DNA from: an uncultured Bacteroidota bacterium
GTDB taxonomy: Bacteria > Bacteroidota > Bacteroidia > Bacteroidales > VadinHA17
Reading direction: 5' to 3'
Length of the DNA: 59,179 nucleotides
Assembly (NCBI GenBank): GCA_903824785.1
Contig: CAIJYD010000087.1
Location: 1-59,179, forward strand
Positions 5,561 through 27,059 of the stretch are shown piece after piece (within the stretch, counting starts at the first letter, position 1; every line of letters begins with the position of its first letter). Position numbers and translations under genes: made by a program. A model generated the notes under the pieces. It was not told where the DNA came from. It saw only the letters and a program-made list of their open reading frames with translations, and did no database searches.

Positions 5561-6457
5561 ATGAACAGAAGACAATTTGCAAAAAATACTTTATTGGCCT
5601 CGGCATTAGTCTCAGCTTCTTCCGTACCAGGTTTATCCGGTATTTTAACACCCGCTCCAAGAACTCTGAAAAAGGGGATCATGTGGGGAAGCATTGGAGT
5701 AGGCCAGACTATTATGGAGAAATTTCAGGCTGCAAAAGAGGCCGGGTTCGATGGCGTTGAGGTAATGAGCCACATGAACAGGGATGAGGTTCTGAAAGCT
5801 CGCGATACAACCGGTCTGGTTATCCCAAGCGTATGCGGTGCCAATCACTGGAAATTTCTGCTGTCAGATCCCGATCCTGCTATTCGTGCTCAGGGTGTCG
5901 ATTCCCTTAAAGTTTCACTGGAAGACGCTTCTGCTTATGGGGCCGATACAGTGTTGATTGTCCCGGGTCGTGTAAGTGACGTGATGAGTTATGATGACTG
6001 CTGGAATCGCTCAGTTGCAGAGCTCAAAAAGGCTATCCCGCTTGCGGAAAAACTAAAGGTTAAAATAGGACTTGAAAATGTATGGAATAATTTTCTCATA
6101 AGCCCGATGGAAGCTGTTTCATTTGTCGATCAGTTTAAATCTCCTTATGTAGGTTTCTATTTTGATTGCGGAAATATTCTTGTCTATGGATGGCCTGAAC
6201 AGTGGATTAAAATCCTGGGTAAGCGCGTTGCCAAAGTCCATATCAAGGAATTCAGCCGGAAGATCGCTGATAAACAGGGTAAAGGAGCCGGGTTTGGTGT
6301 TAAACTACTTGAGGGTGATGTTAACTGGAGTGCTGTTATGTCTGCTCTCGACAATACAGGATATAACGGATGGACAACAATTGAACAACCCGGAGGAGAT
6401 ACCACTGAAGGGCTTAAAGACCTGTGCGTAAGGCTTGCCAAAATCCAGTCCAGCTGA
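5561..6457 (+). CDS. Tat-exported sugar phosphate isomerase/epimerase-type TIM barrel protein
   Basis: The protein has 298 residues. The N-terminus carries a twin-arginine signal (MNRRQFAKNTLLASALVSAS), and the rest is a xylose-isomerase-like TIM barrel (AP endonuclease 2 family). The metal-site acids fit GLENVWNNFL, FDCGNILVYG and KVHIKEFSRK, plus the C-terminal WTTIEQPGG. It pairs with the exported oxidoreductase just upstream. Pairs of this kind occur in Bacteroidota pathways that break glycosidic bonds through 3-keto intermediates; assignment here to such a pathway is inference. A hairpin terminator follows at 6491. Confidence 0.85.
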   Translation: MNRRQFAKNTLLASALVSASSVPGLSGILTPAPRTLKKGIMWGSIGVGQTIMEKFQAAKEAGFDGVEVMSHMNRDEVLKARDTTGLVIPSVCGANHWKFLLSDPDPAIRAQGVDSLKVSLEDASAYGADTVLIVPGRVSDVMSYDDCWNRSVAELKKAIPLAEKLKVKIGLENVWNNFLISPMEAVSFVDQFKSPYVGFYFDCGNILVYGWPEQWIKILGKRVAKVHIKEFSRKIADKQGKGAGFGVKLLEGDVNWSAVMSALDNTGYNGWTTIEQPGGDTTEGLKDLCVRLAKIQSS

Positions 6458-9262: not shown

Positions 9263-9931
9263 ATGAATGATATTCTTGAAAAACTTGCACAATGTGTTGA
9301 ATTTGGGAAGATTAATAAAGCATCTCCCTATCCGCCCAATATGAAAGATCAGGACGGCGCTGATGAATTAGCCAAAAGAGCTCTTGAAGAAGGAGTCAAA
9401 CCTGATGAAATTCTCGAAAATGCACTTGTGCCCGCTATGTCAAGGGTTGGTGATAAATTCACCAGGAAAGAGATCTATGTTCCGCAGATGCTGATGGCTG
9501 CAAAAGCTATGAACAGCGCTATGGCACACCTTAAACCGTTTTTTCAGTCAGGCGAAACAAAAAGAAAAGGGAAATTTATTGTAGGGACCGTTTCAGGAGA
9601 CTTGCATGATATAGGTAAGAACCTGGTTGCTATGATGATAGAAGGTGGTGGATGGGAAGTTATCGACTTGGGTGTGGATGTAGGAACAGAGAAATTTCTG
9701 AAAGCACTGGATGAAAATCCGGATGCAGTTGTTGGATTATCGGCTCTGCTTACCACCACTATGGAAAACATGAAAAAAACTGTAACAGCCATAAAAGAAA
9801 AACATGCAGGCTCAAAAATCCTTATTGGCGGAGCCCCTGTTACAATGGAATATTGTGAAAAAATCGGAGCTGATTTCTATTCTCCCGATCCTCAGGGTGC
9901 GGTGAACTACCTTAAGCAACTTGTATCATAA
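9263..9931 (+). CDS. Corrinoid (B12-binding) methyl-carrier protein
   Basis: The protein has 222 residues. Residues 1-95 form the four-helix cap domain (B12-binding_2) and residues about 103-222 the Rossmann-like B12 domain. The signature GDLHDIG gives D113, H115 and G118; H115 is the expected lower axial cobalt ligand. GLSALLTTT and GGAPVT are the other conserved loops. The size and domain order match MtaC/MtbC-type proteins and the central part of MetH. It carries the methyl group between the pterin methyltransferase encoded at 10120 and an acceptor enzyme not present here. Confidence 0.9.
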   Translation: MNDILEKLAQCVEFGKINKASPYPPNMKDQDGADELAKRALEEGVKPDEILENALVPAMSRVGDKFTRKEIYVPQMLMAAKAMNSAMAHLKPFFQSGETKRKGKFIVGTVSGDLHDIGKNLVAMMIEGGGWEVIDLGVDVGTEKFLKALDENPDAVVGLSALLTTTMENMKKTVTAIKEKHAGSKILIGGAPVTMEYCEKIGADFYSPDPQGAVNYLKQLVS

Positions 9932-10119
9932 TGAATTTCAGTTTGAGATACTGATAGCTATTCAATTGTATTAAGAACTTATCTCTTTTTCCTTAAGTCT
10001 GAATCAGGAAATGTAACTTGTTGTATATTAGAAAATATACCCTTCAAGTATCGTTTTTGGAAAGGCGGAGGTAAGTATATTTAAGGGGTCTAAAAAAAAA
10101 ATTAATATTCAATTTTAAA

Positions 10120-10962
10120 ATGCAAACAATTCTCAGAGGAAGATCCAGGGAGGTCATAATTGACACCAATGGACCGGTTATTATTATTGGTGAGTGTATT
10201 AATCCTACAAGGAGAAAGAAGCTGGTATCCACTTTACAGTCTGGAAATTTTGAATATGTTCTTGAGCTGGCGGAAAGTCAGATTAAAGCAATGGCTGATG
10301 TGCTTGATGTGAATGTCGGATTTCCGGGTGTGGACGATGTTAAATTGCTTGCTGAAACAGTTATTGCCATCAGGGATAATTTCGATATCCCGCTTTGCCT
10401 CGATTCTCCTAATCCGAAGGCAATTGAAGCTGCGTTAAAAGTAGCCGGAGGTAAATGTCTAATTAACTCAGTCAACGGTGAAGAGAAATCTATGAACGCA
10501 ATCATCCCTATAGCTAAGGAGTATGGAGCCGCCATAATCGGACTTACAATGGATGATGAGGGTATTACCAATGATCCATTAAAAAGATTAGCTATTGCCG
10601 AGAAAATACTGGAAAGAGCATTAAAAGCAGGTATCAGGGAAGAGGATGTTATTATCGATCCGCTGGCTATGGCAGTAAGTGCTGATCCACAGGCATGTAT
10701 GATAACTCTTGAAACTATCAGGCTCGTTCATCAGAAGCTTGGTCTCAACATTACTCAGGGGTCGAGCAATATTTCATTCGGATTGCCAAACAGGGAGGTT
10801 CTGAACTCGGCTTATATGACTCTCTCTATTTTAAACGGACTTACCTGCCCCATTGCAAATCCTGAGAAAATTACAGCTGCAATAAGGGCAACCGACCTGA
10901 TACTTGGCAGAGACGATTATGCCATGAGGTTCGTTGAGAATTTTCAGGCTAATGATAATTAA
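10120..10962 (+). CDS. Methyltetrahydrofolate:corrinoid methyltransferase (pterin-binding, AcsE/MetH-pterin type)
   Basis: The protein has 280 residues and a pterin-binding TIM barrel. The N-terminal IIIGECINPTRRKKL and DVNVGFPGVDDVKLL motifs, CLDSPNPKAIEAAL, and the NITQGSSNISFGLPNRE loop are typical of AcsE and of the folate domain of methionine synthase rather than of FolP. It moves a methyl group between methyl-THF and the corrinoid protein. It follows the corrinoid gene after 188 bases and precedes the MetVF gene by 34, so one operon is probable. Confidence 0.88.
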   Translation: MQTILRGRSREVIIDTNGPVIIIGECINPTRRKKLVSTLQSGNFEYVLELAESQIKAMADVLDVNVGFPGVDDVKLLAETVIAIRDNFDIPLCLDSPNPKAIEAALKVAGGKCLINSVNGEEKSMNAIIPIAKEYGAAIIGLTMDDEGITNDPLKRLAIAEKILERALKAGIREEDVIIDPLAMAVSADPQACMITLETIRLVHQKLGLNITQGSSNISFGLPNREVLNSAYMTLSILNGLTCPIANPEKITAAIRATDLILGRDDYAMRFVENFQANDN

Positions 10963-10996
10963 TTGATTTTCAGTTCAATTATACAATACTATAAAT

Positions 10997-12469
10997 ATGT
11001 CTGGTATTAAACCCGCTCGCAGATGGCAACCGGCCTTTTATCCTTTTAAGCGGGAAACAGCAGGCAGACGACTGTTAGCAAAAACAGAACTTTGTATAAA
11101 GGGTCCATTATTTGGTTGCCGGATGTGTGGGAATTGCCTGCTTCAGGAGACTGCTTTTATCTGCCCCATGGAATGTCCAAAGGGTATGAGAAATGGCCCC
11201 TGTGGTGGAATAACCCCTGAGAAAAAATGCTATGTCGATGAGACCCGTAAATGCGTCTGGTATGCTATCTATAAACGGGCACTTAAAACAGGAAGAGAAG
11301 AGATCCTTCTTGAAGTACTCCCTCCTCTCGACTGGAACAAGGTTGGTACCGAAACATGGGGTGAGGTTGTAGGGCAGATCAGAAAAGTGGGTACCGGGAA
11401 ATTCATCGGTTCTCTGTTTTCAAAAGATAAGGAGAGGAAAAATGAAGTATGGAACAGCGTTTTTAAAACTATCCGTCAACCCGACTGGTGGCAGGGCGAC
11501 TCCGATTTTCATTCACCTCCCGATCATGAACCGGCCTCGGAACTGGAACGAAGATTGCTTAATGGTGATTTCGTTGTAGCTACAGAAGTCACACCTCCTC
11601 TGAGTACTAAAACAGATAAGCTGATAAGGGATATTGAGTCAGTTATGCCCTTTGTTACAGCAATAAATTTTACAGATTCTTCTTCTGCATCTCCACGTAT
11701 GTCTGGTCTGGCATGTTGTAAAACGGCACATGATCTAAAAGCTGAACCGGTATATCAGATAGCTTCGCGCGATACCACACGAACCGGATTTCAATCGAAT
11801 ATTGTCGGAGCAAACCAGTTTGGCATCAGAAACCTCCTTTGTATCTCAGGCGATAGTGCCAAAGTGGGACCTTCGCCGACAAGCAACATGAACTTCGTTG
11901 ACGTTGATTCAGTTCAGATGCTATGGATAGCAAGACGAATGAGAGATGAGGGGACTTATCTCGATGGAAGGAAAATGAAGGATCCCCCAAAACTGTTTCT
12001 TGGTGCAGCAACCGCTCCATTTTCTTCTGACCCTGAACTACAGGCAATAAAAGACCATAAGAAAGTAAATGCAGGGGCTCAGTTTTTCCAGACAAATCTT
12101 ATTTTTGAAGCCGACAGGCTCGACCTTTGGCTCGAGCAACTGGATAAAAGGGACATTTTAAATAAGGTATATATCCTGATAGGCATTGCGCCTCTGAAAA
12201 GTTTTAAAGTGGCGCAGTATCTCCATAATAAAGTTCCCGGTGTCAGTTTACCTGAAAATATTCTGAAACGGATGGAAAAAGCAGGCGAATCAGCTCCGGA
12301 GGAAGGGGTGCAGATTGCACTGGAACTTATAGATTCAATAAGACGGAAACAGGGTGTTAATGGAATTCATATTATGTCGCTGGGTTGGGAATCGGTTATT
12401 CAGAGAATTGTTGCAGAAGCCGGTCTTCTCAATCATGAAAATCTCAGAAAGTATGAAACAAATAAATAG
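10997..12469 (+). CDS. MetV-MetF fusion: methylenetetrahydrofolate reductase with N-terminal Cys-rich domain
   Basis: The protein has 490 residues. Residues about 25-105 are the Cys-rich MetV/MTHFR_C domain (CRMCGNCLLQ, CPMECPKGMRNGPCGG, CYVDETRKCVW), with enough Cys for an Fe-S cluster. Residues about 185-485 are the MetF barrel (VVATEVTPPLSTKTDKL, AINFTDSSSASPRMS, FQTNLIFEADRLDLWLEQL). In acetogens MetV and MetF are separate subunits; here they are one chain. It interconverts methylene-THF and methyl-THF, supplying or draining the methyl-THF used by the methyltransferase encoded upstream. Confidence 0.88.
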   Translation: MSGIKPARRWQPAFYPFKRETAGRRLLAKTELCIKGPLFGCRMCGNCLLQETAFICPMECPKGMRNGPCGGITPEKKCYVDETRKCVWYAIYKRALKTGREEILLEVLPPLDWNKVGTETWGEVVGQIRKVGTGKFIGSLFSKDKERKNEVWNSVFKTIRQPDWWQGDSDFHSPPDHEPASELERRLLNGDFVVATEVTPPLSTKTDKLIRDIESVMPFVTAINFTDSSSASPRMSGLACCKTAHDLKAEPVYQIASRDTTRTGFQSNIVGANQFGIRNLLCISGDSAKVGPSPTSNMNFVDVDSVQMLWIARRMRDEGTYLDGRKMKDPPKLFLGAATAPFSSDPELQAIKDHKKVNAGAQFFQTNLIFEADRLDLWLEQLDKRDILNKVYILIGIAPLKSFKVAQYLHNKVPGVSLPENILKRMEKAGESAPEEGVQIALELIDSIRRKQGVNGIHIMSLGWESVIQRIVAEAGLLNHENLRKYETNK

Positions 12470-12486
12470 ATTATTTTCATCTTATT

Positions 12487-13203
12487 ATGACAAATTCAAC
12501 TTTCCAGATAGATTATAAAGACCTGAATATCAATGTTTCTCAGATTGAGGAGATCCTGGGGTATAACGAAGGGGAGGATCGCGAAATATTCAAAGTTCTT
12601 ATTGAGGAAGTGTTAAAGGAAACTGAGAGTTTCTGCCAGATCAGGGCTGAGTATAACATCTGCACAGATCTGGTTTTTAATAATGCAGAAAAGTCGGTTG
12701 ATATTAATGGTATCAATTTTCAGATTAAGAAGATTGTATTTGACCAGCTGAAAAACACAGATTCAGTTGCAGTCTTCCTTTGTACTGCTGGAGAGGAACT
12801 TGGGATCAGAACCAGAAAGGCGATGAAGGATGGAGATCTGCTTACCGGTTATATTTATGATGTTGCCGGAAGCGTAATTGTTGACGCAGCAGCAGATTTT
12901 ATGCAGAATGAACTTGAATTATCTGTTAACCTCTCCGGGAAGAAAATAACAAATCGCTATAGTCCGGGATATTGCGGGTGGTATGTGGCGGAACAGCATA
13001 AACTGTTTCAGCTTGTTCCTGATAATTACTGTGGCATCCGTTTAACAGAGTCGGCGCTTATGGATCCTGTTAAATCAATCAGCGGTATAATCGGGATTGG
13101 TGCAAATGTTAAAATGAACCCTTATACCTGCGGTTTGTGTGAGATGAAGAATTGTGTCTATCGCAAGAAAAAAGAGATCAGAGACAAATCAGCAACCGTA
13201 TAA
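12487..13203 (+). CDS. Stand-alone methionine-synthase (MetH) activation domain protein
   Basis: The protein has 238 residues and matches the C-terminal AdoMet-binding reactivation domain of MetH. The NRYSPGYCGWYVAEQHKLF block (about residue 157) and LTESALMDPVKSISGIIG (about 181) are the AdoMet-binding signature. A Cys-rich tail, CGLCEMKNC, follows and is not part of the classical MetH domain; it could hold metal or a cluster. The domain would re-methylate oxidised cob(II)alamin with AdoMet and an electron donor. It sits 17 bases after MetVF, completing a split MetH in which only the homocysteine domain is absent. Confidence 0.88.
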   Translation: MTNSTFQIDYKDLNINVSQIEEILGYNEGEDREIFKVLIEEVLKETESFCQIRAEYNICTDLVFNNAEKSVDINGINFQIKKIVFDQLKNTDSVAVFLCTAGEELGIRTRKAMKDGDLLTGYIYDVAGSVIVDAAADFMQNELELSVNLSGKKITNRYSPGYCGWYVAEQHKLFQLVPDNYCGIRLTESALMDPVKSISGIIGIGANVKMNPYTCGLCEMKNCVYRKKKEIRDKSATV

Positions 13204-18828: not shown

Positions 18829-19230
18829 ATGAAAAACAGCCAATTGGTAATTGAACATCAAAGTAAATTCAGTTTTGAGAAAACAGTTGAGATGCTGGTT
18901 GCAGGTGCAGAACAAAGGGAGTGGAAAGTCCCTGCAGTTCACGACCTTCAGCTTAGTCTTGCAAAATCCGGAAAAGCTGTCCGACCTGTTAAGGTAATTG
19001 AAATATGCAAACCAGAGTATTCAGGTAAGATGCTGGAACTTAATCATGAACGGATAATTTCTGTTATGATGCCTTGCCGTATCTCAGTTTATGAAAAGGA
19101 AGATGGCTTAACTTATATTGGCCTTATTAATGCCGGAGAGATGGCGGCATCACTTCCCGCAAATATTGAAAAAGTGATGAAAGCTGCTTCGGATGAAACT
19201 TTTGAAATCGTTAAATCAGTTTCGAAGTAA
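18829..19230 (+). CDS. DUF302 domain protein
   Basis: The protein has 133 residues and a DUF302 fold, visible in the SKFSFEKTVEMLVAGAEQREWKVP start and the VMMPCRISVYEKEDGLTYIG core. No signal peptide is present. The function of the family is unknown; the Cys in MPCRIS is commonly kept. It is separated from xylA by 11 bases, so it is probably co-transcribed, though a role in xylose use is not evident. The redox-themed operon starts 0.6 kb downstream. Confidence 0.75.
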   Translation: MKNSQLVIEHQSKFSFEKTVEMLVAGAEQREWKVPAVHDLQLSLAKSGKAVRPVKVIEICKPEYSGKMLELNHERIISVMMPCRISVYEKEDGLTYIGLINAGEMAASLPANIEKVMKAASDETFEIVKSVSK

Positions 19231-19288: not shown

Positions 19289-19720
19289 CTAAGAGAAGAT
19301 CCTCTGTATTGAAGACTTTTCTATCTCGGTAAGCGAATCAATCTGCTGAAGAGCCTGTTGTATTTTTGTTTTGAAATTCCAGCATGTCATCTGGCGAAGC
19401 GATAACCGGCGTGCAAACTCATAAGTAGAAAGATTTTCAGTTCCTTTGCACACATTATACGCTATATAAAATGCTTTGCTAATGGAGAATTTGCAATTAT
19501 GAAAAATAGTTCCGGAGGACGCAGATTCTTCAGTTTTGCATTTGGTACATCGTCGTGAATGAGGTGTTTTTCCCTGGCAGTAGTTCGTATTATTGCATTT
19601 GCGACAGGAATAACCCTCGCCCCACTTCAGCCCGGCAAGAAACTGATAACATTTTTCGTCACTTTGAAACAACTCTTCCAGCTGTTCAGTACTTAGTTCA
19701 GTTTTGAAAATGGAACTCAT
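19289..19720 (-). CDS. Stand-alone IS1595-type zinc-ribbon protein lacking the DDE transposase domain
   Basis: The protein has 143 residues. Residues about 33-60 hold a zinc ribbon (CRKCNNTNYC, CTKCKTEES), followed by TIFHNCKFSISKAFYIAY and a helix-turn-helix-like RRLSLRQMTCWNFKTKIQQAL stretch. This matches the N-terminal region of IS1595 transposases. The catalytic DDE part is missing, and only about 60 bases separate its end from the DUF302 gene. Terminal inverted repeats were not found. It may be a remnant, or a domesticated DNA-binding protein. It is divergent from the promoter of the peptide/thioredoxin operon, which makes a regulatory role conceivable. Confidence 0.65.
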   Translation of the reverse strand: MSSIFKTELSTEQLEELFQSDEKCYQFLAGLKWGEGYSCRKCNNTNYCQGKTPHSRRCTKCKTEESASSGTIFHNCKFSISKAFYIAYNVCKGTENLSTYEFARRLSLRQMTCWNFKTKIQQALQQIDSLTEIEKSSIQRIFS

Positions 19721-19784
19721 TATCAGTTTTTTTACCCCGCAAAGGTATAAAAAAACAGCAATGTTTAAAAAATTCGGTGATACT

Positions 19785-19816
19785 ATTGCGATTTATAAAA
19801 AATGAAATTATCTTTG
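19785..19816 (+). promoter_or_regulatory. Bacteroidota-type promoter of the peptide/thioredoxin operon
   Basis: TATCTTTGC starting at 19809 matches the Bacteroidota -7 box TAnnTTTG exactly. A TTG at 19786-19788, 20 bases upstream, fits the -33 element. Transcription would start a few bases after 19820, just before the ATG at 19842. Confidence 0.65.
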
Positions 19817-19841: not shown

Positions 19842-20087
19842 ATGGAAAGCGGTTGCAAAGTTACCCCAAAACCAAATAGTGTTAAGGAATTTTTTACTTC
19901 CTGGTATTTCTGGAAGCCATTTCTTGGCATTGCTGCCGGTATTCTGGGAGGTTTTCTCTATTTCTGTTTTGTTGAAAGTAAAACAGTACCATGTTTGTTT
20001 ACAAACGATACTTATAGTACAATGTTTTTTGGAGGATTTTTAGGTTACTTTGTTACTGGAAGCCCCTGTTTCAGATTAGGAAGATAA
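19842..20087 (+). CDS. Small membrane protein, DUF6132/YeeE-like
   Basis: The ATG at 19842 is preferred over an in-frame GTG at 19836; the product is 81 residues. Two hydrophobic segments flank a Cys-containing loop: FLGIAAGILGGFLYFCFVE, then TVPCLFTNDTYST and MFFGGFLGYFVTGSPCF. The layout (glycine-rich helix, then Cys, then a Thr-Asn-Asp-x-Tyr loop, then a second helix) resembles DUF6132 and half-size YeeE/YedE proteins linked to sulfur transport. It is the first gene of the operon and ends 6 bases before the methyltransferase gene. Confidence 0.6.
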   Translation: MESGCKVTPKPNSVKEFFTSWYFWKPFLGIAAGILGGFLYFCFVESKTVPCLFTNDTYSTMFFGGFLGYFVTGSPCFRLGR

Positions 20088-20093
20088 AAAACT

Positions 20094-20729
20094 ATGGAAT
20101 ACACCGAAATAATTAAAAGATACAGCGAGCTTGCAGAGACATCCTGTTGCCTCTCATGCGGAGGAGCCATGAATTATTCTGAAGCTGTTCCGGGCGAGGT
20201 TTGTGTCGATCTTGGAAGCGGAAGAGGAACAGATGTCATCAGGCTGGCAGAAGCTGCCGGGAAAGATGGTTTCGTTTACGGCATCGATATATCGGACGGT
20301 ATGATTCTAAAAGCGGTAAGTACTGCTGCCAGGCTCGGAGTAACCAATGTTGACTTTATCCAGAGCCCTCTCGAAAAACTTAATCTTGCAGACTCTATTG
20401 CCGATCTGGTAATTTCAAATTGCACAATTAATCATGCCTCTGATAAACTCTCAGTATGGAAAGAAATTTTCCGGATCCTTAAAAATGGCGGAAGATTTGT
20501 TGTCAGCGATATTTATGCTGTTAATCCTGTGCCTGAAGAATACAGGAATGATCCCGTTGCAATTTCTGAATGCTGGGCTGGTTCTGTTACCCGCAATGAA
20601 TACATGGAACATCTTCGCGATGCAGGATTTTCATCAGTAAGTGTCATTGAAGAATCGGCTCCTTATGAAAAAGGAAAAGTTAAAGTATCAAGCTGGACAA
20701 TTTCAGGAAAGAAATTGTTGGAAAACTAA
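20094..20729 (+). CDS. ArsM-like SAM-dependent methyltransferase
   Basis: The protein has 211 residues. The AdoMet motif is VCVDLGSGRGTDVIRLAE. Three cysteine positions that matter in arsenite methyltransferases appear to be kept: the N-terminal SCCLSCGG, ISNCTINHASDK, and ISECWAGSVTRNEY. The order and spacing of the last two follow the ArsM pattern of NCVxNxxxDK and the later Cys-x-GA. It may methylate As(III), or a thiol or selenol substrate. It lacks the C-terminal extension of classical ArsM. It is inside the thioredoxin/peptide operon, where dithiol reductants would be at hand. Confidence 0.75.
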   Translation: MEYTEIIKRYSELAETSCCLSCGGAMNYSEAVPGEVCVDLGSGRGTDVIRLAEAAGKDGFVYGIDISDGMILKAVSTAARLGVTNVDFIQSPLEKLNLADSIADLVISNCTINHASDKLSVWKEIFRILKNGGRFVVSDIYAVNPVPEEYRNDPVAISECWAGSVTRNEYMEHLRDAGFSSVSVIEESAPYEKGKVKVSSWTISGKKLLEN

Positions 20730-20760
20730 AAGTTAAAAATTAAACAAGGTTGTTAAAGGA

Positions 20761-21240
20761 ATGAAATTATATAAAGAGATGAAAAGAGTTTTTATTATTA
20801 CGGCAATAGTGTTTTCTTTAATTGTAACTAACTGTAAGGCAGATAACCCGGCAGGGGCAGGGGCAAAAGCATCGGCAGAAGGTTCAGTAGTTCAGCTTAC
20901 CGATGCTGTTTTTAAAAAGACGATATTTAATTATGGAAGCAGCAAAGAGTGGAAGTTTGAAGGAAGCAAGCCGGTAATTATTGATTTCTACGCAGACTGG
21001 TGTGCTCCGTGCCGTCAGCTCTCTCCATTAGTTGAGGAAATAGCAAAAGAATATGACGGCAGGATCGTTGTATATAAGGTAGATACAGAAAAAGAAAAAG
21101 ATCTTGCCCGTGCCATAGGTATTACAGGGTTGCCGACTCTGTTATTCATTCCTGCGGAAGGAACTCCGCGTATGTCGATGGGGCTTCTTCCAAAAGCAGA
21201 CCTTGTAAAAGCAATAAATGAGGTTTTATTAATTAAATAA
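20761..21240 (+). CDS. Exported thioredoxin-family protein
   Basis: The protein has 159 residues (a second ATG at 20779 would give 153). A hydrophobic N-terminal segment, RVFIITAIVFSLIVTNC, is either a Sec signal anchor or a lipoprotein signal; the residue before Cys (Asn) is atypical for a lipobox. The thioredoxin domain covers residues about 60-159 with ADWCAPCRQLSPL (C81 and C84) and the cis-Pro loop GITGLPTLLF. It is a periplasmic or membrane-attached thiol-disulfide reductase. It lies 12 bases before the short peptide gene and 31 bases after the methyltransferase gene. Confidence 0.85.
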   Translation: MKLYKEMKRVFIITAIVFSLIVTNCKADNPAGAGAKASAEGSVVQLTDAVFKKTIFNYGSSKEWKFEGSKPVIIDFYADWCAPCRQLSPLVEEIAKEYDGRIVVYKVDTEKEKDLARAIGITGLPTLLFIPAEGTPRMSMGLLPKADLVKAINEVLLIK

Positions 21241-21252
21241 CAATTATCAATT

Positions 21253-21351
21253 ATGAAAAGTGTAATTAAAAAGAGAGTAAACAGAGCCGAAGTTAAAGTA
21301 GCTCAGTGCTGTGCAAAAACATCTAAAACTGTTGTAGGCTGTCACGATTAA
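21253..21351 (+). CDS. Short Cys-containing peptide, putative RiPP precursor
   Basis: This ORF encodes 32 residues. The N-terminal half is very basic (MKSVIKKRVNRAEVKV, like a leader), and the C-terminal half is AQCCAKTSKTVVGCHD with three Cys and several Ser/Thr/Lys acceptors (core-like). It lies 12 bases after the thioredoxin gene and 5 bases before the radical SAM/SPASM maturase gene, the usual place for a precursor. The codons look native. I do not recognise the peptide family. Alternative: a metal(loid)-binding peptide that is not modified. Confidence 0.65.
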   Translation: MKSVIKKRVNRAEVKVAQCCAKTSKTVVGCHD

Positions 21352-21356
21352 ACCTG

Positions 21357-22691
21357 ATGAAGTATTCTAAGTACAATATTTTTTCCAATATCAGGGATTC
21401 TGAGAACTTTTTCATCATTAACCTGCTTACAGGTAATGCCGACATTCTGAATAAAGCTGAGGCTGAAAAGCTTCAGCTTATCAGAAGCGGCGCTATAGTA
21501 CCTGATAGTGATTTTATGGCAGAGGTTACGGAAAAAGGTTACTTTATTGATGAAAATGAAGAGACCAGTCTATACAGGAAAAAGTATCTTGATTTTATCG
21601 ATTCACGGGAAAAGGATGAGATCCAGATTTTCTTTGTAACAAATTACAGTTGCAACTTTGCCTGTACTTATTGTTATCAGGACCAATACACCAATTCTCC
21701 TCATGAGCTCAGCGATGAGATAATTGATGCTTTTTTCAGTTATGTCGGGAAGGAGTTTTCAGGACGTAAAAAATACATTACCATTTTCGGAGGCGAGCCG
21801 CTTCTGAACAGTCCGAAACAGAAGGAGCATATAAAACAGATTCTCAAAAGGGCAAAAGAATCAAATCTTGAAGTTAGCTTCGTTACCAATGGGTATTCAC
21901 TTGAAGATTATTCTGAAATACTCGCTGCCGGGAAAATACGTGAGATCCAGGTGACTCTCGATGGCACAGAGGATATGCATAACAGTCGCAGGTTTCTGAA
22001 GGGAGGGGGAGGAACTTTTGACAGGATTGTCAGAGGTGTTGATGCTTGCCTTAAAAACCAGATCGACATTAACCTCAGAATGGTTATTGACAAAGATAAT
22101 ATCGACAATCTTCCCGGTCTTGCCAGATTTGCTATTGAAAAGGGCTGGACAAAAAGCCGGTTCTTTAAAACACAGATCGGACGTAATTATGAATTGCACC
22201 ATTGCCAGTCTTCTCCGGATAAGCTTTTTGACAGAGTCTCCCTATACGAAAGTCTGGCTGAAATAATTAAACTTCATCCTCATATTCCGGAATTTTATAA
22301 ACCTGCCTATTCGGTAGCAAAATTCCTTTCAGAAAATGGGGAGCTTCCCGATCCATTGTTCGATTCCTGTCCGGCATGCAAAACCGAATGGGCCTTCGAT
22401 TATACTGGACAGATCTACTCATGCACTGCCACAGTTGGCAAATCCGACGAATCACTGGGTAGTTTCTACCCCACTGTTACCAGGAATACGACAGCTATTG
22501 AAAACTGGGAATCCCGCGATTTAACTTCAATTCCTGAATGCAGGGATTGTTCAGTTCAGCTTGCTTGCGGCGGAGGTTGTGGTTCTGTTGCAAAAAACAG
22601 GACAGGAAATATCTGCTCCACTGATTGCCGTCCGGTAAAGGAACTTCTCGAAATGGGCTTTTCAGCCTATATAGAAATCAACAAAGCATAA
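21357..22691 (+). CDS. Radical SAM/SPASM peptide maturase
   Basis: The protein has 444 residues. Residues 1-85 resemble an N-terminal recognition (RRE-like) region. The radical SAM motif CNFACTYC gives C99, C103 and C106, which bind the [4Fe-4S]-AdoMet cluster. TIFGGEPLLN and QVTLDGTEDMHNSRR follow the barrel. The C-terminal SPASM domain carries C395, C398, C404, C408, C420 and C424 (CRDC, CGGGC, CSTDC), plus an upstream CPAC and SCTATVGK, enough for two auxiliary clusters. Such enzymes make thioether or C-C crosslinks in peptides; the peptide encoded 5 bases upstream is the likely substrate. Confidence 0.9.
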   Translation: MKYSKYNIFSNIRDSENFFIINLLTGNADILNKAEAEKLQLIRSGAIVPDSDFMAEVTEKGYFIDENEETSLYRKKYLDFIDSREKDEIQIFFVTNYSCNFACTYCYQDQYTNSPHELSDEIIDAFFSYVGKEFSGRKKYITIFGGEPLLNSPKQKEHIKQILKRAKESNLEVSFVTNGYSLEDYSEILAAGKIREIQVTLDGTEDMHNSRRFLKGGGGTFDRIVRGVDACLKNQIDINLRMVIDKDNIDNLPGLARFAIEKGWTKSRFFKTQIGRNYELHHCQSSPDKLFDRVSLYESLAEIIKLHPHIPEFYKPAYSVAKFLSENGELPDPLFDSCPACKTEWAFDYTGQIYSCTATVGKSDESLGSFYPTVTRNTTAIENWESRDLTSIPECRDCSVQLACGGGCGSVAKNRTGNICSTDCRPVKELLEMGFSAYIEINKA

Positions 22692-22711
22692 GAAATACAA
22701 TTATATTAGCA

Positions 22712-23980
22712 ATGAAAGAGATAAATTCATCAGAATTTGAAATGGATGTTTTGCATTCAGGCAAAGTGATCCTCGATTTTTATTCAACAGAATGCCCTCC
22801 GTGTGAAGCTTTGGCTTCTAAGTTTGAAGAGCTTTCAATGCTCTATGGAAAGGATGTTAAATTCCTTAAAATTTATCGCCAGAAAAACAGAGAACTGGCC
22901 GATAAACTTGGTGTTAAATCATCTCCCACATTATTGTTTTTTGATGATGGGAAAGAGGTTGCTGGAAGACTTAGTGGTGGTGTTAAAAGGAGCGATATAA
23001 TACATAATCTTGATAGTATGCTTCCTTCTGAAAGGGTTGCAGAGATCAAATCGCTCATAAAGCCTACCGTTTCGGAGTTTGATGTTATTATTCTTGGAGC
23101 AGGCCCGGGTGGACTAACAGCAGGTCTTTACCTTTGCCAGTCGAAGATCAATACTGTCCTTATAGATATAGCATTGCCTGGCGGAAATGTGGCAACAACA
23201 CATGAAGTCTCAAACTATCCGGGGTTCATTGAACCTCAGGCAGGGTATATGCTTTCTCACAATATGAGCGAACAGACCAAGCTATGTGGAACAGTTTATA
23301 AAGTAGCCGTTGATGTAACAAGAGTCGACCTCGAAAAAAAGGAGGTCATAATTGATGAATTTGAAACTGTAAGGGCAAAAAGAATAATTATTGCTACAGG
23401 GACAACTCCGAATCTGACAGGGGCAAAGGGCGAAAAAGAGCTGAAGGGGAAGGGCATTTCCTACTGTGCAACCTGCGATGCAAAATATTTTGAGGGCAAG
23501 GAAGCTGTTGTGATCGGCGGAGGTAATTCAGCCATTGAAGAGTCGGAATATATAACAAGGTTTGCTGATAAACTGACAATCGTTCATCAGTTCGATAAGT
23601 TTACCGCAAACAAACAGGCACAGGATAAAGTGTTTAATAATCCAAAGATAAGCGTCATTTTTGAAAATGAACCCAGAGCATTTGTCAGGGACGGAGACAA
23701 AATAGTCACAGAAATAGAGAACACCAGAAACAAAGAGAGCAGGAAGATTGTTAGTGATGGTGTATTTATATTCATTGGTATGAAACCTAATGTGGATTTG
23801 TTTAAAGACAAATTAACGCTCGATAATTGGGGCTATATTAAAACCGATGAAGATATGCGGACAAGTATCCCCGGCATTTATGCAGTAGGGGATGTTATCA
23901 GCAAGAAATACAGGCAGATAACAACTGCTGTCGCTGATGGAACTATTGCCGCAATGGCTATTGCAAAGGAGTTGGATTGA
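22712..23980 (+). CDS. Thioredoxin-thioredoxin reductase fusion
   Basis: The ATG at 22712 gives 422 residues; the reading frame is open further upstream into the maturase gene, but that part has no domain. Residues 1-105 are a thioredoxin with CPPC (C28, C31) instead of the usual CGPC and a SSPTLLFF cis-Pro loop. Residues about 122-422 are a TrxB-type flavoprotein: FDVIILGAGPGGLTAGLY (FAD), CATC (C252, C255), VVIGGGNSAIEES (NADPH) and GIYAVGDV. The reductase would use NADPH to reduce its own thioredoxin and, through it, other partners. It follows the maturase gene after 20 bases. Confidence 0.92.
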   Translation: MKEINSSEFEMDVLHSGKVILDFYSTECPPCEALASKFEELSMLYGKDVKFLKIYRQKNRELADKLGVKSSPTLLFFDDGKEVAGRLSGGVKRSDIIHNLDSMLPSERVAEIKSLIKPTVSEFDVIILGAGPGGLTAGLYLCQSKINTVLIDIALPGGNVATTHEVSNYPGFIEPQAGYMLSHNMSEQTKLCGTVYKVAVDVTRVDLEKKEVIIDEFETVRAKRIIIATGTTPNLTGAKGEKELKGKGISYCATCDAKYFEGKEAVVIGGGNSAIEESEYITRFADKLTIVHQFDKFTANKQAQDKVFNNPKISVIFENEPRAFVRDGDKIVTEIENTRNKESRKIVSDGVFIFIGMKPNVDLFKDKLTLDNWGYIKTDEDMRTSIPGIYAVGDVISKKYRQITTAVADGTIAAMAIAKELD

Positions 23981-24086
23981 ATCGCAGTCAGAGTTTGGCT
24001 TTGGAGGAGTGGCAAAAATGGTTCTCAAAGCTGACTGAAGAAGCATTAATGTGAATTTGAATAGTTTAACAAATATTTTTATAAGG

Positions 24087-24290
24087 ATGAAGAAAAACAT
24101 TGGAACAATTGACAAAGTGATCAGGATTCTGGTTGCAGCCGTAGTTGCAGTACTCTATTTTACGAACATAATTTCAGGTACTGTAGCAATTATTCTATTA
24201 ATCGTGTCTGCGATATTTATTCTGACAAGTTTAATAAGCTTCTGTCCGCTCTATCTGCCCTTTGGGCTGAGCACCAGAAAAAAAGAATAA
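24087..24290 (+). CDS. DUF2892 small membrane protein
   Basis: The ATG at 24087 has AAGG just before it and gives 67 residues; an ORF open from 24051 adds no recognisable domain. The sequence MKKNIGTIDKVIRILVAAVV is the DUF2892 signature, with two helices ending in SFCPLYLPFGLST. Such proteins often accompany rhodanese or thioredoxin genes. It is the last gene of the operon, and an intrinsic terminator follows at 24296. Confidence 0.8.
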   Translation: MKKNIGTIDKVIRILVAAVVAVLYFTNIISGTVAIILLIVSAIFILTSLISFCPLYLPFGLSTRKKE

Positions 24291-24295
24291 TACAT

Positions 24296-24320
24296 GCCGG
24301 AGCAATCCGGCTTTTTTATT
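24296..24320 (+). terminator. Intrinsic terminator of the peptide/thioredoxin operon
   Basis: GCCGGA (24296-24301) and TCCGGC (24306-24311) form a 6-base-pair G+C-rich stem with a GCAA loop, followed by TTTTTTATTTT. It lies 5 bases after the DUF2892 stop codon. Confidence 0.9.
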
Positions 24321-24362: not shown

Positions 24363-24752
24363 TTATCCCTGTGATGTTTTTATATAGAACACCGGTGGAT
24401 TGGCAATTGATTTTTTAACCTTGCACAGTTCTGCAACATTGATAACCGAAGCCTTATATTTTTCCGGAAAATCTTCGGGCAGGTTAATGTCAAGGGTAAT
24501 ACTTACCGGCAAGCCGGTCTCGTTATTATACTCTGTTTTCTGAATGATTTTGATTTTGTCAGTTGGTATTCCGCGGTTGTCGCAGAACGATTTAACATAT
24601 ATCCCTGCACAGGTGCCAATTGCTGCAAGAAAGAGGTCAAAGGGGGCAGGAGCTGTATCTCCTCCTCCATTGTCAAGAGGTTGGTCGGTTTTAATCAGGT
24701 GACCATGTGTGTGTGCCGTAACTACTTTCCCTCCCTCAAATGTTATCTCCAT
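24363..24752 (-). CDS. OsmC family protein
   Basis: The protein has 129 residues. The OsmC/Ohr fold carries two Cys: GTCAGIYVKSFC (peroxidatic position) and VAELCKVKKSIAN (resolving position). PAPFDLFLAAIGTC matches the YhfA-like subgroup of OsmC. Members reduce organic hydroperoxides or related thiol substrates in the cytoplasm. It faces the end of the thioredoxin operon across the terminator. It adds to the redox theme, but is not part of that transcript. Confidence 0.85.
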   Translation of the reverse strand: MEITFEGGKVVTAHTHGHLIKTDQPLDNGGGDTAPAPFDLFLAAIGTCAGIYVKSFCDNRGIPTDKIKIIQKTEYNNETGLPVSITLDINLPEDFPEKYKASVINVAELCKVKKSIANPPVFYIKTSQG

Positions 24753-24811: not shown

Positions 24812-25429
24812 TTAATTCCTGACTGAGACCAGCAGAAATACTTCAAACTTTTTTGTTTCTGTTTCAGATATTTTACGGTCAATTACAAAGCAGCATTTTC
24901 CTGAAATATTTGTAAACTGATGATTTTCAATTATTTTTGTCAGGTTTTCAATATTAAATCCCAGGTGGCCAGTGAATCCTTCTCCGTGAAAGGATCCGTC
25001 CTCTTCATACAGATCAGCAATAGCCAGATACCCGCCCGGATTCAGTAATTTTGAGAATCTGGCTACAATAGAATCAATATCCGTAACATGATGAAGTACC
25101 ATCTGTGTGAAGATAAGATCAAAAGTTTTATCTTTCAGATCAGATTGTTCAAGATCGAAATTCAGAGCGTTAAGATTACTTGCTTTAGTAGCCTCTATCT
25201 TCCCTTTCATCACCTTTATCATTTCAGGTGAGTTATCCATCAGGGTAATCTCCTTGAGATCATCTTTGAGTAAAAAGCTGGCAATGCCGGTACCTGCTCC
25301 GTATTCGAGGGCAGTCATCTCTTTTGTTAAGGGAATGATTTTTCGTATCTCATTCGCAATAGCTTCAGAGCGAGCCCAGTGCATTGGATTTTTATCCCAT
25401 TCGGCTGCTTTGGAATCAAATTCATTCAT
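24812..25429 (-). CDS. Class I SAM-dependent methyltransferase
   Basis: The protein has 205 residues. The AdoMet motif is MTALEYGAGTGIASFLL, followed by ITLMDNSPEMIKVMK, FDLIFTQMVLHHVTDID and LLNPGGYLAIADL. It belongs to the broad Methyltransf_11/25 group; the substrate is unknown. It runs the same way as the OsmC gene with 59 bases between them and is divergent from the corrinoid activator gene at 25566. Confidence 0.85.
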   Translation of the reverse strand: MNEFDSKAAEWDKNPMHWARSEAIANEIRKIIPLTKEMTALEYGAGTGIASFLLKDDLKEITLMDNSPEMIKVMKGKIEATKASNLNALNFDLEQSDLKDKTFDLIFTQMVLHHVTDIDSIVARFSKLLNPGGYLAIADLYEEDGSFHGEGFTGHLGFNIENLTKIIENHQFTNISGKCCFVIDRKISETETKKFEVFLLVSVRN

Positions 25430-25565: not shown

Positions 25566-27059
25566 ATGCTTAAAATTAAAATAGTTGGTTCTGATAGCGA
25601 AAAAATAATTGAATCATCGGCCGGTATTTCATTGCTGGAGGTGCTGAGAAAAGAGAGGGTTGCTATTTATACACCTTGCGGCGGTAAAGGGACCTGTGGA
25701 AAATGCAGGGTGAAAATAAAAGATGAAGGAGAAGTTATCGCCTGCAAATATTTTCCGGAAAAAGATATTGAAGTCGTGCTTCCCGGAGAAGAAGAGGCAA
25801 ATATCCTTGTTCATCAGACAGAATATCTTGAGGATCTTCCATATAGCTACAGTAATTACGGATATCTCACCTCCAGCCCGTGTGGTGTGGCAATTGATAT
25901 CGGAACTACAACCGTTGTTATCTATTTTTTGAACCTTTTAACGGGCCAGATTGAGAAAATTTCATCTTTTTTAAATCCTCAGAAACTATTTGGTGCTGAT
26001 GTCATTAGCAGGATAAATCATTGCCAGGAGAATGAGGATGGCTTGAAAGTGTTGCAGATGTCAATTATTGACGCTCTGAATTTTGAGCTTGATGCCTTCA
26101 GGGTTATTAATGGTCTGTCCCGCGAGAATTACGAAAAAATAATTATTGTCGGCAACACAACTATGCTTCATCTTTTACTGGGAGAAGATCCGCTCTCAAT
26201 TGCCCTTGCCCCTTTTAAACCAAAATTCACAGATTCACAGATAAGAAATGGCAGCTCTTCATTATTAAATATTAATGGTAGCGGGGAGGTAACTACTCTT
26301 CCATGTATCTCTGCTTTTGTCGGGGCTGATATCCTGGCCGGCATGTCTGCCATGAAAGTAACGAACAGAAACTATCTTTTTCTTGATATAGGAACAAATG
26401 GTGAAATAGCTCTTATAAAGGGAGATGAGATCTTTACATGCGCCACGGCGGCCGGACCTGCCTTTGAAGGTGCAAATATCTCATGCGGAATGGGTGCTGT
26501 ATCAGGTGCTGTCTCGCTTTTTTCCGGTCCGGGTAAATACCAGGTTATTGGTAACTGTTATCCCGTTGGGGTTTGCGGGTCGGGGATTGTCGATATTGTT
26601 GCCTATTTGCTCGATAAAGAATTAATTGACGAAACAGGGTTGCTTAAGGAAACTTTTTTCATTGATCCTGAAAGAAGAGTAGGGGTAGTTCAACAGGATA
26701 TCCGGGAAATTCAGTTGGCGAAATCTGCCATATATTCAGGAGTCAAAATCTTATTGAACGTAGCAGGATTATCATTCGGAGATATTGACGCATTATATCT
26801 GGCAGGAGGGTTCGGTAATTATATAAGTATAAAATCAGCTGTTCAGATTGGCTTATTGCCCAATGAGTTGAAGGGTAAGATTTATCCCGTTGGCAATAGT
26901 GCAGGAATCGGAGCACTTCAATATTTAAAATCGGATGAGTTTGTCGAAAAAACAGTTTCCATACTGAAGAATACGCGTTACATTGAGTTATCGGATATTG
27001 ATGAATTCACCCTGGAATTTGCTTTAAATATGGATTTTACTCCTGTTCGCTTAAGTTAA
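25566..27059 (+). CDS. RACo-like corrinoid activation protein (2Fe-2S plus ASKHA/DUF4445)
   Basis: The protein has 497 residues. The N-terminal ferredoxin domain binds a [2Fe-2S] cluster through C38, C44, C47 and C60 (CX5CX2CX12C). The rest is an ASKHA ATPase-like domain: GVAIDIGTTTVVIYFLN, GNTTMLHLLLG, FLDIGTNGEIAL and LYLAGGFGNYISIKSAVQIG. Such proteins use ATP to drive electrons uphill and reduce Co(II) of corrinoid proteins to Co(I). It is shorter than characterised RACo proteins, which exceed 600 residues. The corrinoid protein encoded at 9263 is its natural partner, although the genes are 12 kb apart. Its 3' end overlaps the class V enzyme gene tail-to-tail by 23 bases. Confidence 0.85.
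   Translation: MLKIKIVGSDSEKIIESSAGISLLEVLRKERVAIYTPCGGKGTCGKCRVKIKDEGEVIACKYFPEKDIEVVLPGEEEANILVHQTEYLEDLPYSYSNYGYLTSSPCGVAIDIGTTTVVIYFLNLLTGQIEKISSFLNPQKLFGADVISRINHCQENEDGLKVLQMSIIDALNFELDAFRVINGLSRENYEKIIIVGNTTMLHLLLGEDPLSIALAPFKPKFTDSQIRNGSSSLLNINGSGEVTTLPCISAFVGADILAGMSAMKVTNRNYLFLDIGTNGEIALIKGDEIFTCATAAGPAFEGANISCGMGAVSGAVSLFSGPGKYQVIGNCYPVGVCGSGIVDIVAYLLDKELIDETGLLKETFFIDPERRVGVVQQDIREIQLAKSAIYSGVKILLNVAGLSFGDIDALYLAGGFGNYISIKSAVQIGLLPNELKGKIYPVGNSAGIGALQYLKSDEFVEKTVSILKNTRYIELSDIDEFTLEFALNMDFTPVRLS

Follow-up and report, generated by a model that had tools for sequence, protein, structure and literature searches.

What does a 32-residue cysteine peptide do beside a radical S-adenosylmethionine (SAM)/SPASM enzyme, two thioredoxin-type proteins and a methyltransferase resembling the arsenite methyltransferase ArsM? 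The question is raised by seven genes on contig CAIJYD010000087.1 (GenBank assembly GCA_903824785.1), from an uncultured Bacteroidota bacterium of the VadinHA17 lineage; the 59,179-nucleotide sequence is hereafter called the window. A preliminary description took the seven genes to be a single operon for a ribosomally synthesized and post-translationally modified peptide (RiPP). Only part of this stands. The conserved unit consists of four genes, namely the ArsM-like methyltransferase, the peptide, the SPASM maturase and a thioredoxin–thioredoxin reductase (Trx-TrxR) fusion, and they almost certainly form a genuine RiPP module; the other three look like a separable accessory module.

A selected peptide and its conserved partners

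A scan of a sequence collection with the maturase gave 183 confirmed relatives, of which the best 80 were kept (L-numbered loci); two that start at the maturase (L048, L084) were left out, leaving 78 loci testable for an upstream peptide. The preliminary description had named maturase loci without the peptide as grounds for abandoning its proposal. As expected of a RiPP locus, a short precursor gene with a conserved core is linked to the maturase in cis in 76 of the 78, at ≤203 bases in 72 and at 426–1338 bases in four (in L068 its leader is cut off by the contig end). In the remaining two loci (L041, L045) the peptide is encoded elsewhere in the same genome, directly behind an ArsM-like gene, in one case ~10 kb upstream on the same contig and in the other on another contig.

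The core, AQCCAKxSxxxxGCHD, runs up to the stop codon. The 77 cores compared (76 loci and the window) comprise 77 distinct nucleotide and 31 distinct amino acid sequences; A17, C19, C20, A21, K22, S24, G29, C30, H31 and D32 are invariant in all 77, each encoded by at least two synonymous codons, and Q18 is altered once. Seventy-seven different DNA sequences with ten invariant residues mark the peptide as a real gene under selection, not a chance open reading frame. The core barely changes across records titled Bacteroidota, Ignavibacteria, Kapaibacterium and Spirochaetia. Apart from an MK[SN][LV][VI]KK-type start, the short, basic leader varies. Cysteine occurs in 13 of 75 leaders; members of a Paludibacter-type subgroup (L089, L090, L092–L099, L101, L102) have additional cysteines in the leader (KSCGC, KSCC and similar); of these, L102 is a record titled Paludibacter jiangxiensis. 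Pfam and NCBIfam searches with the peptide returned no family over cut-off, the lone Pfam match being BTK (E 0.026, below cut-off).

The maturase has a ranthipeptide-type CX3CX2C motif (Cys 99/103/106) and a full SPASM cysteine set (Cys 338, 341, 356, 395, 398, 404 and 408), present in all 79 members, with Cys 424 in 78. The SPASM spacing, CX9GX4C and CX2CX5CX3C plus the last cysteine, was read against what we take to be the motif form. The best curated models were CefB NF038107 (residues 1–439) and TIGR04463 (residues 6–409), with PapB NF047865 also among the top three; scores were below the curated cut-offs (162 of 600, 135 of 525 and 127 of 340 bits, respectively). The best PDB sequence was CteB (5wgg), to which there was also a full-length fold match. 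In the AlphaFold model, a three-strand, three-helix N-terminal domain aligns with 5wgg from residue 4 (predicted local distance difference test, pLDDT, 77–93 by block in residues 1–60) and appears to be RiPP recognition element (RRE)-like. The mean pLDDT is 75, with values <50 in residues 104–107, 277–285, 315–342 and 394–426; since these include much of the SPASM part, the model was used for the N-terminal domain and barrel only.

The ArsM-like protein matches the PDB arsenite methyltransferase 5evj (E 3e-24). Cys22, Cys37, Cys110 and Cys160 are present in 63 of 63 members and Cys18 and Cys19 in 62. By our reading of the alignment with PDB ArsM, Cys22, Cys110 and Cys160 probably correspond to the arsenite-site cysteines, which are Cys72, Cys174 and Cys224 in CmArsM (PMC12608789). 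A Cys-rich C-terminal tail (e.g., KKDSCGCGN) occurs on 41 of the 63 members; the window protein has no such tail. The Trx-TrxR fusion scores 313 bits against TIGR01292, below the cut-off of 343, and in the window has both a CPPC and a CATC centre.

The preliminary description had suggested checking whether peptide, maturase and reductase fusion co-occur; they do, and the ArsM-like gene goes with them. Among 98 related genomes, the window's own included (G-numbered; E thresholds were set to part orthologs from numerous paralogs), 21 have the maturase, 21 the peptide, 20 the ArsM ortholog and 19 the fusion. Set comparison showed that, of the maturase-bearing genomes, only G023, whose maturase begins at base 3 of its contig, has neither ArsM nor peptide, and only G002, G019 and G021, in all of which the maturase touches a contig end, have no fusion. 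One extra fusion, in G036, reaches the final bases of a 5672-base contig, and the ArsM of G034 is a partial frame with one stop. The mismatches thus come down to contig ends plus one orphan peptide, in G094. The collection loci agree: ArsM lies upstream in 67 of 69 testable loci (all but L041 and L045), and the fusion lies downstream in 74 of 75, standing farther off behind another gene in L083.

In a wider comparison of 296 genomes of the phylum, again including the window's own, five (own included) have a strong peptide match, and the same five have an orthologous maturase; weak peptide matches in G141, G366 and G151 (E 0.005–0.009) were taken as noise, which reduced the count from 8/296 to 5/296. 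Two genomes with maturase relatives at 29–30% identity (G148, G325) had no CCAK...GCHD peptide among their open reading frames and no peptide match. In G148 a different small Cys protein stands downstream; at L115 (1100–1285, minus strand), downstream of a relative at 30% identity, such a protein reads PWICVGYVDCIGKCDSICSP. A second radical SAM match in the window's own genome (L002) was set aside as sulfatase-maturase-like by eye.

Operon layout, accessory genes and a promoter repeat

The window sequence and its open reading frames confirm the layout given in the preliminary description. All seven genes are present, co-directional and tightly spaced, the peptide 5 bases before the radical SAM/SPASM gene, and a promoter box, which we take to be of the Bacteroidetes −7 type, and a terminator-like hairpin bracket the operon (Table 1). 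The intergenic gaps were said to be mostly under 35 bases; they are 6, 31, 12, 5, 20 and 106 bases, so that five of six lie between 5 and 31, and the last shrinks to 70 if GTG at 24051 is the start of the DUF2892 gene.

Table 1. Positions of the module, its accessory genes and associated sequence elements in the window.
Feature	Position	Strand	Basis
Zn-ribbon/HTH DNA-binding protein, 143 aa, candidate local regulator	19289..19720	-	Pfam Zn_ribbon_IS1595, NCBIfam IS1595 profiles; regulator role putative
Candidate operator GTGATACTATTGCGATTTA, one copy	19777..19795	+	Perfect match to repeat consensus
TAnnTTTG promoter box	19809..19816	+	Sequence motif; type presumed
Small membrane protein, DUF6132-like, accessory module	19842..20087	+	Via relative in L045
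ArsM-like SAM methyltransferase, 211 aa, core gene	20094..20729	+	NF008823, PDB 5evj
Exported/lipoprotein-type thioredoxin, accessory	20761..21240	+	TIGR01068, WCAPC; export predicted
Precursor peptide MKSVIKKRVNRAEVKVAQCCAKTSKTVVGCHD, 32 aa, core gene	21253..21351	+	Conserved across loci; no family over cut-off
Conserved core of peptide AQCCAKTSKTVVGCHD	21301..21348	+	Alignment of 77 copies
Peptide maturase of the radical SAM/SPASM type, RRE-like domain at N terminus, core gene	21357..22691	+	Profiles, fold, Cys set
Thioredoxin–thioredoxin reductase fusion, core gene	22712..23980	+	Pfam Thioredoxin 3-101, Pyr_redox_2 123-410
DUF2892/YgaP-type membrane protein, accessory module	24087..24290	+	PF11127 E 1.6e-22
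Terminator-like hairpin GCCGGA-GCAA-TCCGGC plus T-run	24296..24317	+	Sequence

The first transmembrane (TM) protein has no Pfam match of its own; its relative in L045 matches PF19628 DUF6132 (E 3.6e-4, below cut-off). The exported thioredoxin scores 98.8 bits against TIGR01068, over the cut-off of 96.8, and tblastn placed it between ArsM and the maturase at 12 of 69 testable loci. Flanking the operon are genes for OsmC (24363–24752, minus strand), a second methyltransferase (24812–25429, minus) and a DUF302 protein (18829–19230, plus), homologs of which recur in some related loci. Farther out on either side, at 9263–13203 and 25566–27059, there are by eye genes for a corrinoid protein, an MtrH-like methyltransferase and an ASKHA-type corrinoid activator.

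Divergent to the operon, in the window as in 21 related loci (137–181 aa as called), is a gene for a Zn-ribbon protein that matches Pfam Zn_ribbon_IS1595 (E 2.5e-7) and, below cut-off, NCBIfam IS1595 (E 3e-7, profile positions 2–57 of 215). A full IS1595 transposase was ruled out for the window gene: only the N-terminal part of the profile is matched by its 143 aa product, which has no catalytic domain. Nor is the gene specific to the operon, as homologs occur in 30 of the 98 relatives (16 of 21 with the operon, 14 of 77 without it); the frames in G079 and G086, at 308–315 aa, may be full transposases. Nine of the 14 operon-free loci were read, with genes named by eye. In seven (L158, L162, L163, L167, L174, L175, L176) the Zn-ribbon gene stands beside some of DUF6132-like TM, thioredoxin, DUF2892, rhodanese-like and AhpC-like genes; two (L170, L172) have none of these neighbours. 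Because accessory genes adjoin the Zn-ribbon gene even where there is no operon, the window reads as a Zn-ribbon/TM/Trx/DUF2892 block that encloses the four RiPP genes.

The divergent regions at the 21 Zn-ribbon loci share a repeat, GTGATA-N-YA-N4-GATTYA, which 20 of them contain with ≤1 mismatch, 16 at least twice, 20–24 bases apart; among 4200 shuffles preserving base composition only, 7 contained it. As the consensus was derived from the regions in which it was counted, the 20/21 is partly circular; as an independent sign, 25 of the 57 loci that have no Zn-ribbon gene beside them also contain the repeat. Many relatives have two copies, the window one, which is its sole match at ≤2 mismatches (0.07 expected). 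The repeat also precedes thioredoxin genes (L030, L095) and a TM1 gene (L080). We infer that the Zn-ribbon protein binds the repeat, and it is possibly a domesticated-transposase regulator that recurs beside thiol- and sulfur-type genes.

Sulfur, arsenic and the role of the peptide

The linkage of the four genes, a core under selection, intact cysteines at the Fe-S and arsenite sites and a sulfur-linked genome and promoter context lead us to favour, tentatively and somewhat short of even confidence, a module that makes a small modified thiol peptide acting inside the cell. The RRE-like domain of the maturase would bind the basic, MKSLIKKK-type leader, and its radical SAM/SPASM domain would form a thioether, most likely from a cysteine to the beta carbon of Asp32 in GCHD, as PapB does; by this analogy a bond to Asp32 is plausible, though we would not count on it. 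At least the vicinal C19–C20 pair may remain a dithiol that the Trx-TrxR fusion keeps reduced. The dithiol would then carry a thiophilic species, with sulfane or other reactive sulfur a likelier cargo than As(III), and the ArsM-like enzyme would methylate the carried species or a peptide thiol. Whether a thiophilic element is handled at all we judge evenly balanced.

As to which element, we lean toward sulfur over arsenic. Reactive sulfur is favoured by the promoter repeat, which precedes a CoA-disulfide reductase/rhodanese gene by 79–135 bases in L090, L094, L095 and L098 (domains were checked in L094 only, giving three rhodanese stretches). An SQR relative (PDB 3hyv, E 1.6e-34) is the next gene after the ArsM-peptide pair in G394, and in G393 an octaheme tetrathionate-reductase-family cytochrome (over cut-off) and a Sulf_transp protein lie between the peptide and maturase blocks. 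Neighbour clusters among the 78 loci include SQR-like (18), DUF1847 (20), rhodanese (9) and TauE (8) genes, with DUF302 in 40.

Several observations weigh against this picture. Only 37 of 65 testable loci have the repeat at ≤350 bases from their first gene, and all four CoA-disulfide reductase cases come from one Paludibacter-type subgroup. SQR-like genes occur in 8 of 38 full loci; at the genome level, with 3 of 21 operon-bearing relatives vs 1 of 77 others, they are too rare to carry weight. A count of MT2 genes (18/38) was set aside, as it could include hits to the ArsM-like gene as well. The ArsM-like protein itself scores 177 bits against the arsenite methyltransferase model NF008823, under the cut-off of 263. 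Arsenite methyltransferases vary in cysteine number, some having fewer (PMC8649762), so that conserved cysteines do not prove arsenite as the substrate. Acr3 is over cut-off in 17 of 21 operon-bearing and 36 of 77 other relatives (p 0.006).

This Acr3 enrichment favours arsenic, and with the three invariant arsenite-site cysteines it suggests detoxification, in which the three-Cys peptide would chelate As(III) and pass it on for methylation by the ArsM-like enzyme, Trx-TrxR serving as the reductant. The enrichment persists within the genus (12 of 15 with the operon vs 19 of 43 without, p 0.033) and is weak when stratified by size and genus (stratified P 0.02). However, four of 21 operon genomes have no Acr3 match, the 20 largest neighbour clusters (7 family-checked) included no recognisable arsenic-resistance gene, and neighbours and promoter repeat point to sulfur; we regard detoxification of arsenic as rather unlikely.

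The same 20 clusters bear on two other explanations, as neither a peptide exporter nor a peptidase was seen among them (7 family-checked; TauE-type and TonB-like clusters do occur). Small cofactors such as pyrroloquinoline quinone and mycofactocin are made from precursor peptides, and a core almost fixed across four groups of records, followed by the fusion in nearly every testable locus, could fit a peptide giving rise to a small cofactor of the redox or thiol kind that is reduced by that fusion. Such a product would have to be freed, however, and no recurrent peptidase was seen in those clusters; the fusion, moreover, resembles a standard Trx reductase, and the window protein has both CxxC sites. 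We consider this improbable. A secreted signal or antimicrobial peptide of the sactipeptide or ranthipeptide kind would suit the maturase fold, and a quorum-sensing role has been reported for SCIFF ranthipeptides (PMC8326336). Against secretion stand a core that hardly varies, the want of a recurrent exporter or peptidase in those clusters and, for an antimicrobial role, the wide conservation of SCIFF peptides, a point made in that review; we hold this explanation to be very unlikely.

The orphan peptide is a further point against the favoured route. G094, a 99%-complete genome, keeps the peptide with no orthologous maturase (best match 28% identity, E 3e-7), so the peptide there may work unmodified. 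The gene (L137, ~6299–6394, minus strand) lies behind a different methyltransferase, by eye like that at 24812–25429 in the window, and near an HdrA-like gene; Fur/PerR-like, AhpC-like and thioredoxin genes are also nearby by eye. One could thus propose a small unmodified Cys protein that serves as scaffold or regulator, the radical SAM enzyme acting on another target. The leader-plus-core layout, the RRE-like domain and the adjacency or co-presence of peptide and maturase in all 78 loci argue against it, and we rank it last among the explanations, with little chance of being correct.

Most radical-SAM peptides have been read as antibiotics or signals. A core almost fixed among records of several phyla, its tie to a reductase and an arsenite-type methyltransferase and its frequent sulfur-gene neighbours suggest that this peptide may instead do metabolism. 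Taken to its end, the idea would make the product a thiol cofactor that is ribosomally encoded and modified by radical SAM chemistry. It would be the peptide equivalent of glutathione or bacillithiol, served by a dedicated NADPH-dependent reductase (the fusion) and a dedicated methyltransferase, and Bacteroidota and some neighbours would use it to carry and methylate reactive sulfur or arsenic; we offer this as speculation that is doubtful in its full form. If the metabolic reading holds, an unrecognised sulfur or arsenic route may exist in the lake and sediment bacteria that have this system. As a defined four-gene system, it could be rebuilt in vitro to follow what the maturase does, how thiols are reduced and how a thiophilic element is methylated.

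Comparison with known systems

The radical SAM RiPP class is already known; the peptide and the four-gene set were absent from the family libraries and from the results of the literature searches (subscription papers and preprints lay outside the scope of the latter), in keeping with the earlier statement that no described RiPP class is known to have such a set. The closest parallels are the PapA/PapB and CteA/CteB (SCIFF) ranthipeptides, in which a radical SAM enzyme with RRE-like and SPASM parts likewise adjoins a Cys peptide. PapB joins Cys to Asp (PMC9413430). Here, in contrast, the crosslink is predicted, the core has three cysteines (CC...C), a single C-terminal Asp and no repeated motif, and the peptide is accompanied by an ArsM-like methyltransferase and a Trx-TrxR fusion; three cysteines in 32 residues also differ from the six in about 45 that define SCIFF. 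CefB (NF038107) and TIGR04463 are the best-scoring models for the maturase, yet its scores are below their cut-offs, and unlike the peptides of those systems ours has no Cys-every-fifth pattern.

The methyltransferase shares with ArsM (NF008823; CmArsM) its domain and, as aligned, three putative arsenite-site cysteines. It differs in length (211 aa vs 377–387 in the best PDB relatives), in falling below the curated cut-off, in its six nearly invariant cysteines, which include an N-terminal CCLSC, and in its linkage to a peptide gene. The Trx-TrxR fusion resembles known fusions in domain order, thioredoxin then TrxR, and in its CPPC and CATC centres; unlike known thioredoxin reductases and Trx-TrxR fusions, it follows a peptide module.

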